Shown: in pieces, positions 2,022-58,437 of the stretch | Numbering within the stretch: position 1 is the stretch's first letter | Layout: each line of letters opens with the position of its first letter | Source of the DNA: Magnetospirillum fulvum MGU-K5 | GTDB taxonomy: Bacteria > Pseudomonadota > Alphaproteobacteria > Rhodospirillales > Magnetospirillaceae | Direction of reading: 5' to 3' | NCBI RefSeq assembly: GCF_000442515.1 | Contig: NZ_AQPH01000004.1 | Coordinates: 1 to 64,000 of the forward strand | DNA length: 64,000 bases | Made by a program: the position numbers and the translations under genes | Notes under the pieces: generated by a model | Told to the model about the DNA's origin: nothing | The model's input: only the letters and a program-made list of their open reading frames with translations | Database searches by the model: none

Positions 2022-3046
2022 TGACAGTCCCCTCCCAAACAGGTTTGGCCCAAGGAACTGCATCCGCCTTCGCCCGATCCGGCCTTGGGATCGCGCACGA
2101 CTTCGGCCAGGGCTTTGATGAAAAAGGGATGACAGCCCAGCGCCGGTACGCGGACATAGCCCGGAATTCCCAGCGTTTCGGCCTCTTTTCGATATTCGAT
2201 GTCGAGTTCGACCAGCGTCTCTGAATGCTCTGACACGAAAGCGACCGGAACCACGACAACCGGAACGTGATCTTTCCCGGCGCGTTCAAGTTCGCTCTGG
2301 ATCGACGGCCCGATCCATTCCATCGATCCGACCCGGCTTTGATAGCACAAAGCCCAATCGAGATCGGGAATACCGATCGCTTTGGCCACCGCCTTGGTGG
2401 TCTGCTCAACCTGCGCCTGGTAGGGATCGCCATTATCGATCATCTTTTTGGGCAGACTGTGCGCCGAAAACAAGATCCGTGGCGTGCCCTTTTCCTTGGC
2501 TTCGTCATAGCCGATCCGGACCAGATCGGCCAAGGCCGTGACCATGTGCCGCTGGGTCGGATAACAGCAGGACAGCCGCGATGGAATCCGCAACCGCAAC
2601 CGCTTGGCCTGGGTTTGCCATTCCTTCAGCGACGATCCGCCGGTCGTCATCGAGAATTGCGGGTACAGCGGTAGCAGAATAACCCGATCCGCTTTCCAGG
2701 CTTTGACGGATTCAACCGTTTCGCTGGTAAACGGATGCCAATACCGCATCGCGATAAAGCAACGGTAACCAGGACCGAGCAAGCTTTCCAGCTCGCGGGC
2801 CTGGGCTTCGGTTTGGGCGACCAAAGGAGATCGCCCACCGAGATTGGCATAGATGTCGCGCGCAGCGGGCGCCCGCCGCTTGGAAATCATCTTGGCGATC
2901 AGCCAGCGCAGAGGGGCCGGGACGTCGATGATCGCCCTGTCATTGAACAGGTTGAACAAAAACGGCTCGACCGCCTCGGGACTGTCAGGACCACCGAGGT
3001 TGAACAGCACAACGGCTGTTCTACTGCCCGCTGCGTCGGTCATCAT
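2015..3046 (-). CDS. hemH: Ferrochelatase HemH
   Basis: Inserts ferrous iron into protoporphyrin IX to make protohaem. The 343-residue product carries the family core: [13 protein letters not shown] at the N-terminus, the active-site histidine in [10 protein letters not shown] near residue 195 and the conserved acidic stretch [11 protein letters not shown] near 270. The C-terminus is unusual in being cysteine-rich: one Cys near 305 (GCHPFF) and four in the last 20 residues with spacing C-x6-C-x4-C-x-C. Some bacterial ferrochelatases, including that of Caulobacter, bind a [2Fe-2S] cluster with C-terminal cysteines, and this tail fits that. The start ATG overlaps the hemE stop as ATGA, and the end overlaps hemJ, so the three haem genes form one operon reading away from the origin. 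Confidence 0.97.
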
Positions 3047-4083
3047 CCCTTCCAGTTTTTGACCCGTTCTGCCAGCCGGGCAACATTTTCCGGCGGGGTC
3101 GGGGGGACGATACCATGCCCGAGATTGAAGATGAACCGACCCTTGCCGAGCTTGGACAGGACGCGATCAATCCCGGCATCAAGGGCTTCACCGCCCGCGA
3201 CCAGCAACAGCGGGTCGAGATTGCCCTGAACGGTGCAATGCGGCTGCAATTCGGCGGCGGCCCAATCAAGCGGAACCGACGAATCGATCGAAACGCCATC
3301 GACCTTGGTCTCAAGCACGTAGCGCTTGTACAGCACACCGGCTCCACGCGGGAAGCCGATCACCGGAACGCCGGGACGTTCGGCACGAATCCGCTCGACC
3401 AAAGCGCGGGTCGGGGCGATCACCCACTTGTCGAACTCGAGTTCCGGCAGAGCACCGGCCCAGGTGTCGAAAATCTGGATGACTTCGGCGCCGTTGTCGA
3501 TCTGACGGATCAGATAATCGCCGGTGGCCTGGGTCAGCAGCGCCATCAGGCGGGCGAACAGCTCCGGCTGCGAGAACATCATGCCCTTGGCGTTCGGGAA
3601 GTCCTTCGACCCGCTGCCTTCGACCATGTAGGTCGCCACCGTCCACGGAGCCCCGGCAAAGCCGATCAGAGCCGTGGTGGCGGGGATCGCCTTCGACAGA
3701 CCGGCCATCGTGGCATAGACCGGCGCGAGGTGCTCGTGGAAGCCCGAGAGGTTGAGGCGGTCAAGGTCCGCTGCTGAGCGAATCGGCGGCAGGACCGGAC
3801 CTTCGCCTTCCTTGAAGGAGACTTTCTGTCCGAGCGCATCGGGGACAACGAGAATGTCGCTGAACAGGATCGCAGCATCGAAGCCATAACGCCGCAACGG
3901 CTGCAACGTCACCTCGACCGCCAGATCCGGCGTGTAACACAGATCGAGGAAGCTGCCGGCCTCAGTGCGGGTAGCACGATATTCCGGAAGGTACCGACCA
4001 GCCTGACGCATCAGCCAGAACGGCGGAGGGGTGAGGATTTCGCCGGAAAGGGCGCGGAGGAAGGGTTTGGTTGAGTTGGACAC
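3043..4083 (-). CDS. hemE: Uroporphyrinogen decarboxylase HemE
   Basis: Cytosolic enzyme that decarboxylates the four acetate side chains of uroporphyrinogen III to give coproporphyrinogen III. Recognisable motifs are [17 protein letters not shown] near the N-terminus (substrate-binding arginines), the [14 protein letters not shown] segment near 90 and [16 protein letters not shown] near 150. The open frame extends to 4296, but the extra 71 residues are not HemE-like and run into the putative origin. I chose GTG at 4083, giving 346 residues, the usual length. It is the first gene of the minus-strand haem operon, and its promoter must lie inside the origin region. In Caulobacter hemE also borders the replication origin. 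Confidence 0.96.
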
Positions 4084-4166
4084 GGGGTCAGCCTTGGTTC
4101 GAGTGGTCCCCCCTCTCTTACCTTCTTTAGGAGTTAAGGAAAAGAAGGCAGTGAGTAGAGGATGCC

Positions 4167-4175
4167 TGTGGATGA
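4167..4175 (-). promoter_or_regulatory. DnaA-box variant in oriC
   Basis: On the minus strand reads TCATCCACA, one mismatch from TTATCCACA. It lies closest to hemE. Confidence 0.5.
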
Positions 4176-4199
4176 CGGGGATTAGCCCCTCTCCCCCGA

Positions 4200-4208
4200 T
4201 TATCCCCA
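4200..4208 (+). promoter_or_regulatory. DnaA box in oriC
   Basis: TTATCCCCA, identical to two other boxes in the same gap. Confidence 0.7.
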
Positions 4209-4301
4209 GGCTTGTCCGGTCGCGGCGAGGCAGAGCGACTGATCGTGGGCTTTTCGAGGGCAATTGTTGCCAAGTGCTTGATTCAAGGCACCCCACGGCC
4301 T

Positions 4302-4310
4302 TGCGGATAA
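4302..4310 (-). promoter_or_regulatory. DnaA-box variant in oriC
   Basis: Minus strand TTATCCGCA, one mismatch from TTATCCACA. It lies 3 bases from the next box, forming a closely spaced pair in the same orientation. Confidence 0.6.
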
Positions 4311-4313
4311 AGC

Positions 4314-4322
4314 TGGGGATAA
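4314..4322 (-). promoter_or_regulatory. DnaA box in oriC
   Basis: Minus strand TTATCCCCA, second of the close pair at 4302-4322. Confidence 0.7.
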
Positions 4323-4460
4323 TGGGGAAAACTCGTGGCCGCGGTGCTGATTCACGTTATTCTCGGGGAAGGGCAGAAAACTTTTGGACAGACTCATCGG
4401 TCGGCGCGTGGAATATGAGCCAACGGGGAGCGAATCCAGCGACTCTCGCCCAGACCCCGG

Positions 4461-4469
4461 TTATCCCCA
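4461..4469 (+). promoter_or_regulatory. DnaA box in oriC, upstream of the DUF299 gene
   Basis: TTATCCCCA 22 bases before the chosen start codon of the DUF299 gene, so DnaA bound here could also affect transcription or translation of that operon. Confidence 0.7.
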
Positions 4470-4491
4470 TGATTGGAACTTGTCCACTGGC

Positions 4492-5322
4492 ATGGCCGAC
4501 TTTCATCTCCACCTCGTTTCCGATGCCACCGGCGAAACCATCACTTCGGTGACGCGCGCCTGTCTGGTCCAGTTTGAAACCGTCCATCCGGTGCTGCATC
4601 ACTGGTCTCTGGTCCGCACCCAGGGCCAGGTCGAGCGCGTTATCGCCGGAATTCAGGAAAAACCCGGACTCGTCTTGTTCACTCTGGTCGATCGAACCGT
4701 CCGGGTGATGCTCGAAGACGCCTGTCGCCGCCGCTCGATTCCGTGCATTTCGGTGCTCGATCCGGTGATGGCCGGGCTGTCGGCGTTTCTGGGCACCACC
4801 GTTAACGCTTTGCCGGGGCGGCAATATCAGCTTGATGCTGAATATTTTCGCCGCATTGACGCGATGCAATTCACCCTGGCCCACGATGACGGCCAGTTGA
4901 TCGAACTGGTCGAGGAAGCCGACGTTGTCCTGGTCGGCGTATCCCGAACCTCGAAAACCCCGACCAGTATGTATATCGCCAATCGCGGGCTGAAATGTGC
5001 CAACTACCCGCTGGTGCCGGGGGTCACGATTCCTCCCGAATTGGAAAACGCCAAAAATCCCCTGGTGGTCGGTCTGACCAAGGATCCCAAAAGCCTGTCC
5101 GATATCAGACGCGCCCGGCTGCGCCTGCTCAATCAGACCGAGGAAGCCGATTACGCCCAGTACGAACGGGTCAAGGAAGAGGTGCAGATCGCCCGCCGCC
5201 TGTTCACCCGTCTGGGCTGGCCGGTGGTCGATGTCACCCGGAAATCGATTGAGGAAGCTTCGGCGACGATCATTCAGTTGCATGATCAGCGTTTGGCCAA
5301 GCTGCGCGAGTCTGAACAATGA
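4492..5322 (+). CDS. DUF299 bifunctional kinase/pyrophosphorylase (PEP synthase or PPDK regulatory protein)
   Basis: Family members switch pyruvate,phosphate dikinase or PEP synthase off and on by phosphorylating and dephosphorylating a threonine next to the catalytic histidine. The 276-residue product begins with the typical FHLHLVSDATGETI and carries the P-loop-like GVSRTSKTPTSMYIANRG near residue 150. The open frame starts at 4384, but ATG at 4492 begins the conserved sequence. It is the first gene to the right of the origin, like the RP001 homologue in Caulobacter, and overlaps maf by ATGA. Which of the two target enzymes it controls cannot be told here because neither gene is in the window. 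It is unrelated to the photosynthesis repressor PpsR despite the shared name used for E. coli. Confidence 0.92.
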   Translation: MADFHLHLVSDATGETITSVTRACLVQFETVHPVLHHWSLVRTQGQVERVIAGIQEKPGLVLFTLVDRTVRVMLEDACRRRSIPCISVLDPVMAGLSAFLGTTVNALPGRQYQLDAEYFRRIDAMQFTLAHDDGQLIELVEEADVVLVGVSRTSKTPTSMYIANRGLKCANYPLVPGVTIPPELENAKNPLVVGLTKDPKSLSDIRRARLRLLNQTEEADYAQYERVKEEVQIARRLFTRLGWPVVDVTRKSIEEASATIIQLHDQRLAKLRESEQ

Positions 5323-57424: not shown

Positions 57425-57524
57425 CACGAAGGCTCCCTCGTCTGAGTGTTAGTCGTCAGTCCTAGGTGGGGGTGAACCGGCCAAAGTGCCAGGGGGAAAG
57501 TTAAAACGATTCGATTCCGCTTCG

Positions 57525-57552
57525 TTGACAGCCCCTTTTCGCGGAGTATGGT
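57525..57552 (+). promoter_or_regulatory. Predicted promoter of dapD operon
   Basis: A perfect TTGACA (57525-57530) and TATGGT (57547-57552) with 16-base spacing. A small inverted repeat GGTGAC/GTCACC (57550-57566) covers the likely start site. Confidence 0.6.
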
Positions 57553-57594
57553 GACCTCCCGTCACCGGGAGTCTTTACAACCAGGAGTCCGCAG

Positions 57595-58437
57595 ATGAGC
57601 CCCGCCGCCCTCGAATCGACCATCGACGCCGCCTGGGAGGCGCGCGATACCGTTACTGTTGCCACGCAGGGCGCCGTGCGCGACGCCGTTGAAGCGGTGC
57701 TGGACGGGCTCGATAATGGGTCGTTGCGGGTGGCCGAGAAAAAAGACGGGACCTGGGTTGTCAATCAATGGCTGAAAAAAGCGGTGCTGCTGTCATTCCG
57801 CCTGACCGATTCCGCCCCGATCCCCGGTGGTCCCGGCGGAGCGTCGTGGTTCGACAAGGTGCCGACCAAGTTCGAGGGCTGGGATGATGCCCGCTTCCGC
57901 GCCGCGGGCTTCCGCGCCGTGCCGGGATCGGTGGTGCGCCGCTCCGCCTATATTGCGCCGGGTGTGGTGCTGATGCCGTCCTTCGTCAATCTCGGAGCCC
58001 GGGTTGAATCCGGCACGATGGTCGATACCTGGGCCACCGTTGGTTCGTGTGCCCAGATCGGCCGGAACGTCCATCTGTCGGGCGGCGCGGGGATCGGCGG
58101 TGTGCTTGAGCCGCTTCAGGCCGGTCCGGTGATCATCGAGGACGATTGCTTCATCGGGGCCCGTGCCGAAGTCGCCGAAGGGGTGATCGTCGAGACCGGG
58201 GCGGTGCTGTCGATGGGCGTCTATCTCGGCGCCTCGACCAAGATCATCGACCGCGAAACCGGCGAGACGTTTATCGGACGGGTGCCGCCCTTCTCGGTCG
58301 TGGTGCCGGGCAGCCTGCCGGGCAAGCCGCTGCCCGACGGCACGCCGGGACCGAGCCTGTATTGCGCGGTGATCGTCAAAAAGGTCGATGCCCGCACCCG
58401 GTCCAAGGTCTCGATCAACGAGCTGTTACGCGATTGA
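57595..58437 (+). CDS. dapD: Tetrahydrodipicolinate N-succinyltransferase DapD
   Basis: Uses succinyl-CoA to acylate tetrahydrodipicolinate in lysine synthesis. The 280-residue product has an N-terminal alpha region, then a left-handed beta-helix of hexapeptide repeats (about residues 105-240: [24 protein letters not shown]), with [24 protein letters not shown] before it. The C-terminal Lys-rich part is complete. CAGGAG precedes the ATG. The TGA overlaps the TTG start of dapE, indicating coupling. Confidence 0.97.

Follow-up and report, generated by a model that had tools for sequence, protein, structure and literature searches.

The Region between hemE and PPSRP

The window analysed here is a stretch of 64,000 nucleotides from Magnetospirillum fulvum MGU-K5. 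Between hemE and PPSRP it contains an intergenic region of 408 bp (4084–4491, GC content 0.57), which is the putative chromosome origin. Its position between hemE and PPSRP/COG1806 is that of a hemE-type origin, and its 408 bp hold three DnaA-like boxes of the exact form together with three boxes that differ by one mismatch. The flanking genes and the elements of the region, apart from its GANTC sites, are as follows:

3043–4083, minus strand: hemE, uroporphyrinogen decarboxylase (PF01208, 404.6 bits)
4167–4175, minus strand: DnaA-like box with one mismatch (sequence match)
4200–4208, plus strand: DnaA-like box TTATCCCCA (sequence match)
4271–4283, minus strand: IHF-like site, WATCAN5WTR (consensus from an excerpt of PMC1914354)
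4302–4310, minus strand: DnaA-like box with one mismatch (sequence match)
4314–4322, minus strand: DnaA-like box TTATCCCCA (sequence match)
4323–4331, minus strand: DnaA-like box with one mismatch (sequence match)
4349–4365, plus strand: conserved origin element RATTCACGNTATYSTCG, with ATTCACGNTAT in 17 of the 17 genus origins
4461–4469, plus strand: DnaA-like box TTATCCCCA (sequence match)
4492–5322, plus strand: PPSRP, COG1806/DUF299, kinase-pyrophosphorylase (PF03618, 312.3 bits)

The family tests in the flanks covered hemE and PPSRP. From their sequences, we take the genes that lie upstream, up to 4083 and on the minus strand with hemE, to be rho, a hemJ-like gene and hemH, and those on the plus strand with PPSRP from 4492 onwards presumably include maf and aroE among further genes. 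The IHF-like site at 4271–4283 is matched exactly at this place in 4 of the 17 genus origins, and a second match to the consensus (4462–4474) overlaps a DnaA-like box. By the PPSRP protein, the nearest named relatives are M. fulvum DSM 13234 (97%) and M. molischianum DSM 120 (93%). The GC skew was higher to the right of the region in 19 of 22 named relatives and its sign changed in 14 of the 22, with a weak amplitude.

The same boundary genes, hemE and COG1806, flank the Caulobacter origin and are found at this place in several other Alphaproteobacteria, according to excerpts of PMC1914354. The region resembles Cori of Caulobacter crescentus in these flanks, in its DnaA-like and TCCCCA-type boxes, in its several GANTC sites and in the presence of CcrM in the genome. 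It differs from Cori in that the 64-kb window contains no CtrA site of the consensus TTAAN7TTAA, in that the boxes read TTATCCCCA and not TGATCCACA, and in the lack of a GcrA match in this genome.

The Five GANTC Sites and Their Density

GANTC is the target of a common cell-cycle DNA methylase. The original prediction placed five such sites in the PPSRP-proximal half of the region, and all five are found exactly there, with none in the hemE-proximal stretch 4084–4279:

4280–4284, no strand assigned: GANTC 1 (GATTC), overlapping the IHF-like site; shared at the aligned position by 9 of the 17 genus origins
4349–4353, no strand assigned: GANTC 2 (GATTC), at the beginning of the conserved RATTCACGNTATYSTCG element (its bases 1–5)
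4391–4395, no strand assigned: GANTC 3 (GACTC), in 3 of 17 genus origins, namely the own species and the two nearest relatives only
4432–4436, no strand assigned: GANTC 4 (GAATC), a GANTC in 3 of 17 genus origins
4441–4445, no strand assigned: GANTC 5 (GACTC), a GANTC in 2 of 17 genus origins

The fourth site shares its first base, 4432, with a block GGGGAGCG (4425–4432) that does not vary among the 17 genus origins.

The background of about one site per 300 bases that had been assumed is a little high, as the window holds 168 sites in 64 kb (one per 381), and GANTC is depleted in it relative to dinucleotide shuffles (168 observed, 334 by shuffling). The density in the origin region is 12.3/kb. 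It was compared with a 464-kb sample of the same genome, made up of the window and 20 stretches of 20 kb each, in which intergenic regions of at least 120 bp were delimited by a home-made gene caller, as was also done for the named relatives. Other intergenic DNA carried 112 GANTC in 39,218 bp (135 regions, 2.86/kb, observed/expected 0.63) and coding DNA 2.72/kb. At the intergenic rate, five sites in 408 bp have a Poisson P of 0.0069; dinucleotide shuffles of the origin region itself, which is poorer in GC, gave a mean of 2.13 sites and P 0.042. A scan of the 464-kb sample returned three stretches with five sites within at most 166 bp, the origin included. Whether the density falls within the normal genomic range is a borderline matter: the origin ranks fifth among the 113 intergenic regions of at least 150 bp, and it is one of the two among 49 regions of at least 300 bp that hold at least five sites. 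Given the P values and the three clusters in 464 kb, the cluster is unusual for a location specified in advance, and unremarkable when any location counts.

A tighter cluster, with five sites in 110 bp, is present at 57508–57617 of the same window. It lies just before and over the start of an open reading frame (57595–58437) that resembles dapD.

Conservation of the Sites and the Element at 4349

Retention was taken as the fraction of comparisons in which all four specified bases of a site are kept in another origin. Across the 17 aligned genus origins it was 0.297 for GANTC versus 0.260 for any position, and GANTC ranked 50th among the 116 patterns that had 25 or more instances each, below DnaA-box-like patterns such as TANCC and CCNCA. 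Two of the five sites are found in about half of the 17 genus origins and the other three are not; conservation in place is thus mostly lacking. The three closest species have five sites each, with two positions swapped. Shaheen is said to have reported in 2009 that the CcrM sites of the Caulobacter origin are kept only among close relatives, and the sites confined to close relatives here agree with that report. None of the GANTC sites overlaps any of the six DnaA-like boxes of the origin region, and a role as markers of DnaA boxes was therefore rejected.

Two of the sites lie, by alignment, inside other origin elements. Site 4280 reads TTGATTC in all 9 of the 17 genus origins that carry it, despite differing surroundings, and the six TTGATTC sites outside the closest three all retain the C that is required for GANTC. 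At site 4349, the first column is G, which makes a GANTC, in 8 of 17 genus origins and A in 9 of 17. The exact core of the RATTCACGNTATYSTCG element occurs in 32 of 51 family origins, where it is accompanied by an upstream block AANCGGRTG; its first base is G in 19 of them and A in 13, which indicates that the element is constrained as a purine at this base and not as GANTC. The idea that 4349 is kept as a methylation site was thus rejected.

The 15-base form of the element is found once per genome, always at the origin, in 16 of the 17 genus genomes, and the origin copy of the seventeenth (G008) is off by one base. With one match per genome, the element was also rejected as a repeated regulon site, although a motif as long as 15 bases should be unique in any case. 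A literature text search with ten letters of the element led, among the matches listed, to unrelated papers.

GANTC in the Origins of Relatives and of the Class

The origin regions of relatives were delimited by the tblastn starts of hemE and PPSRP in the genus, family and class sets. The origins of the 22 named relatives carry 68 GANTC in 9,462 bp (7.19/kb, observed/expected 1.54) and 83 other intergenic regions of the same relatives 92 in 24,975 bp (3.68/kb, observed/expected 0.83), with 1.94/kb in coding DNA. The origin was denser than the other intergenic regions pooled in 17 of 21 loci. When one random region per locus was drawn in 21 of the 22 relatives (one locus has no second intergenic region), with the origin itself among the possible draws, the origin value was reached with P 0.0015; this and the other P values are rough, as related origins are not independent. 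An enrichment over other intergenic DNA, as would be looked for in a methylation-gated origin, is thus present and modest. For the origin of this genome, the idea that it merely takes part in a general intergenic enrichment was rejected, since the other intergenic regions of the genome give the observed/expected ratio of 0.63 noted above.

Of the 55 family genomes, four lacked a PPSRP match and were left out. The remaining 51 family origins contain 140 GANTC, with a range of 0–10 and a median of 2; three have none and nine have at least five. Against shuffles, the observed/expected ratio is 2.28 for the own species with its two nearest relatives, 1.00 for the remaining 14 of the genus (25 observed, 25.1 expected by their own shuffles) and 1.53 in the 34 other family origins. 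The maximum of ten sites among the 51 family origins is reached in the 437-bp origin region of one family genome (G065, locus L101). In the genus origins, the palindrome AGNCT exceeds GANTC, with 13 versus 4.0 expected in the closest three and 34 versus 12.0 expected in the other 14. The lack of a GANTC excess in the rest of the genus and the greater over-representation of AGNCT both argue against a strong rule.

For the class, 192 genomes were searched, 133 had a PPSRP match and 60 origins were taken, picked from among the better-scoring matches so as to give roughly one per family; three without hemE upstream were dropped, which left 57. These were compared with shuffles and with coding flanks. 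The 47 CcrM-bearing class origins contain 150 GANTC versus 91.9 expected (1.6-fold, z 5.6), which is the highest z of eight palindromes of this kind (the next is ACNGT, z 3.6), and their density is 6.92/kb versus 1.73/kb in their own coding flanks. The ten origins of genomes labelled CcrM-less, that is, without a match at E <= 1e-60, contain 27 versus 23.4 expected, and the densities of the two groups do not differ clearly (P 0.29). Hence hemE-type origins of CcrM-bearing Alphaproteobacteria carry GANTC modestly above composition, without fixed places. The split between the hemE side and the PPSRP side is 13/27 in the 17 genus origins, 49/51 in the 34 other family origins and 94/83 in the 57 class origins, and on these counts the left/right asymmetry was rejected as a general feature of origins.

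CcrM and GcrA

A search of the own genome for a ccrM homologue gave one PF01555 match, and the encoded protein combines an N6_N4 methylase domain (PF01555, 214.2 bits) with a C-terminal RAMA domain (PF18755, 66 bits). It aligns with the solved Caulobacter CcrM 6pbd over 354 residues (532.7 bits, E 5.2e-159). CcrM is thus encoded in the genome, and the lack of a ccrM gene, which would have spoken against the original prediction, is excluded. With this gene present, the origin GANTC sites are very probably methylated by CcrM. Strong CcrM matches (E <= 1.7e-178) are present in 16 of the 17 genus genomes, the own included, and the seventeenth, which is 79% complete, has weak matches only. Ahead of the likely ccrM start, at distances of about 40 and 70 bases, there are two GANTC sites (2274–2278 and 2299–2303 of stretch L001).

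GcrA was found in the own genome neither with Pfam PF07750 nor with a custom profile of six proteins of the order (14 regions were taken, of which 6 were used, where a start pattern located the protein). None of the 17 genus genomes gave a strong match to GcrA, with weak or summed matches alone. In the family, the custom profile gave a strong match (E <= 3.6e-21) in 4 of 55 genomes, two of which (G048, G049) are independent of the building of the profile. Thirteen more family genomes, eight of them in the genus, gave weak matches (E 4.4e-6 to 0.0066), none of which extends over as many as 50 of the 122 positions. PF07750 at E <= 1 marked 7 of 55 family genomes, including the same four strong ones; the other three (G044 and, in the genus, G009 and G010) passed the cut-off only by the summing of weak same-frame stretches. 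Such weak PF07750 matches mean little, because a Sulfolobus control was also over the cut-off. Genomes from other families of the order all had PF07750 matches at E <= 2.6e-12 (16 of 16).

In an excerpt of PMC11514494, GcrA is termed co-conserved with CcrM. The part of PMC7987155 that was consulted names Magnetococcales and Holosporales as the only orders without GcrA, and ctrA, gcrA and ccrM are given for 72–82% of Rhodospirillales genomes in an excerpt of PMC8116508. No statement of a loss in Magnetospirillum was found in the excerpted literature on the distribution of GcrA; a figure on the topic in Brilli 2010 (PMC2877005) falls outside these excerpts. By these searches, Magnetospirillum and its kin appear to have kept CcrM and lost GcrA. 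GANTC counts are 0, 2 and 3 in three family origins that come with GcrA, and 9 in a total of 3,167 bp in seven origins of the order's other families. A tie between the absence of GcrA and the enrichment at the origin is nevertheless not supported and was set aside, because class origins are enriched in general despite these counts.

Does Methylation of the Origin Gate Initiation?

In the original prediction, the methylation state of the origin could report replication or gate initiation. Its CcrM and GANTC part holds insofar as CcrM is present and origins are enriched, but gating is not supported: retention is not clearly above that of average origin sequence, no site lies on a DnaA-like box, the base that makes site 4349 a GANTC may be either G or A, no GcrA was detected in the genome, and Caulobacter without CcrM controls initiation normally (excerpt of PMC3973325). 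Gating of initiation by GANTC methylation is therefore unproven and, on present evidence, unlikely. It is somewhat more likely than not that the region is an ordinary alphaproteobacterial origin of the hemE type, carried by a CcrM-bearing Magnetospirillum species, and, jointly with this, that its GANTC sites are methylated passively and do not gate initiation. CcrM would methylate the sites, a fork that leaves the origin would make them hemimethylated like any replicated GANTC, and the hemimethylated sites would have no gating role. The five sites reflect a modest tendency of origins to carry GANTC, to which are added the two sites inside other elements, and three sites are limited to the own species and one or two of its closest relatives.

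Passive methylation without a role in initiation, as we infer it, is favoured by the near-average retention and the presence of three of the five sites in only two to three of the 17 genus origins, by the purine constraint at 4349 and the lack of overlap with DnaA-like boxes, and by counts of 0–10 per family origin, the 14 genus origins without excess and the higher AGNCT. From outside this analysis, the strongest evidence comes from Caulobacter, whose DNA-content profile in the absence of CcrM resembles that of the wild type even with several GANTC in its origin (excerpt of PMC3973325). Some results speak against passive methylation. GANTC is more frequent in the origin than in the rest of the intergenic DNA, a difference that tolerance between genes fails to explain, and GANTC has the top z of eight palindromes in the 47 class origins (150 versus 91.9). 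The closest three species keep five sites with two swapped, and selection on number could give the same. The six TTGATTC sites outside these three retain the C that makes a GANTC. The effects of CcrM over-expression and the work on Agrobacterium ori2, taken up below, argue against a firm no.

The same results bear on other explanations. Origin methylation might tune initiation, with hemimethylated sites lowering re-firing until late CcrM, so that the number of sites is selected and not their places. The enrichment in the origins of relatives and of the class would fit this, as would the keeping of CcrM in 16 of 17 genus genomes, the extra chromosomes that follow CcrM over-expression in Caulobacter (cited in an excerpt of PMC3973325) and the over-initiation that it causes at ori2 of Agrobacterium, a RepC-type origin with GANTC (excerpt of PMC11514494). 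We regard tuning as unlikely, given normal initiation in Caulobacter without CcrM, near-average conservation, sites off the DnaA-like boxes, GcrA not found in this genome, ten CcrM-less class origins that are not clearly lower, and family origins of which only nine have at least five sites and three have none. A still smaller chance is given to the alternative that the job for which CcrM is kept in Magnetospirillum and its kin lies at the origin, where a reader other than GcrA would sense methylation and space initiations; within it, IHF at TTGATTC or a protein that binds RATTCACGNTATYSTCG would possibly be such a reader.

It is equally doubtful that the sites form part of the divergent hemE and PPSRP promoters, with any action on transcription and not on replication. 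Both putative promoters presumably lie in this divergent region, and many effects of CcrM in Caulobacter are on transcription (excerpt of PMC3973325). However, the other divergent intergenic regions of the genome are unenriched (37 in 14,026 bp, 2.64/kb), those of the relatives have 16 in 3,773 bp (4.24/kb, observed/expected 1.08), and the searches of this genome gave no GcrA, the known reader of methylation. Just as little probability is given to chance within a single region that is lower in GC. It would agree with P 0.042 from shuffles of the region itself, with three clusters this tight in 464 kb and with the 14 genus origins that show no excess over shuffles, but the 22 relatives point in the same direction (1.54 versus 0.83 in other regions) and the 47 class origins do so with z 5.6.

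Relation to Known Systems

The concentration of methylase sites in the origin is shared with the Dam/SeqA control of E. coli oriC. Unlike in that system, the sites here are mostly unconserved in place and lie off the DnaA-like boxes, and SeqA is not known outside Gammaproteobacteria. The methylation of E. coli oriC is touched on in an excerpt of PMC3973325. CcrM sites in an origin are also known from the repABC ori2 of Agrobacterium, for which the model is that hemimethylation restrains re-firing (excerpt of PMC11514494). However, ori2 is a RepC-type secondary origin, and the one described here is a DnaA-type main origin.

GANTC sites in the origin were already known from Caulobacter, where their role was tested with a negative result (excerpt of PMC3973325). 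Magnetospirillum, with CcrM and apparently no GcrA, would allow the part of CcrM at the origin to be tested without the transcription factor that elsewhere reads GANTC methylation.
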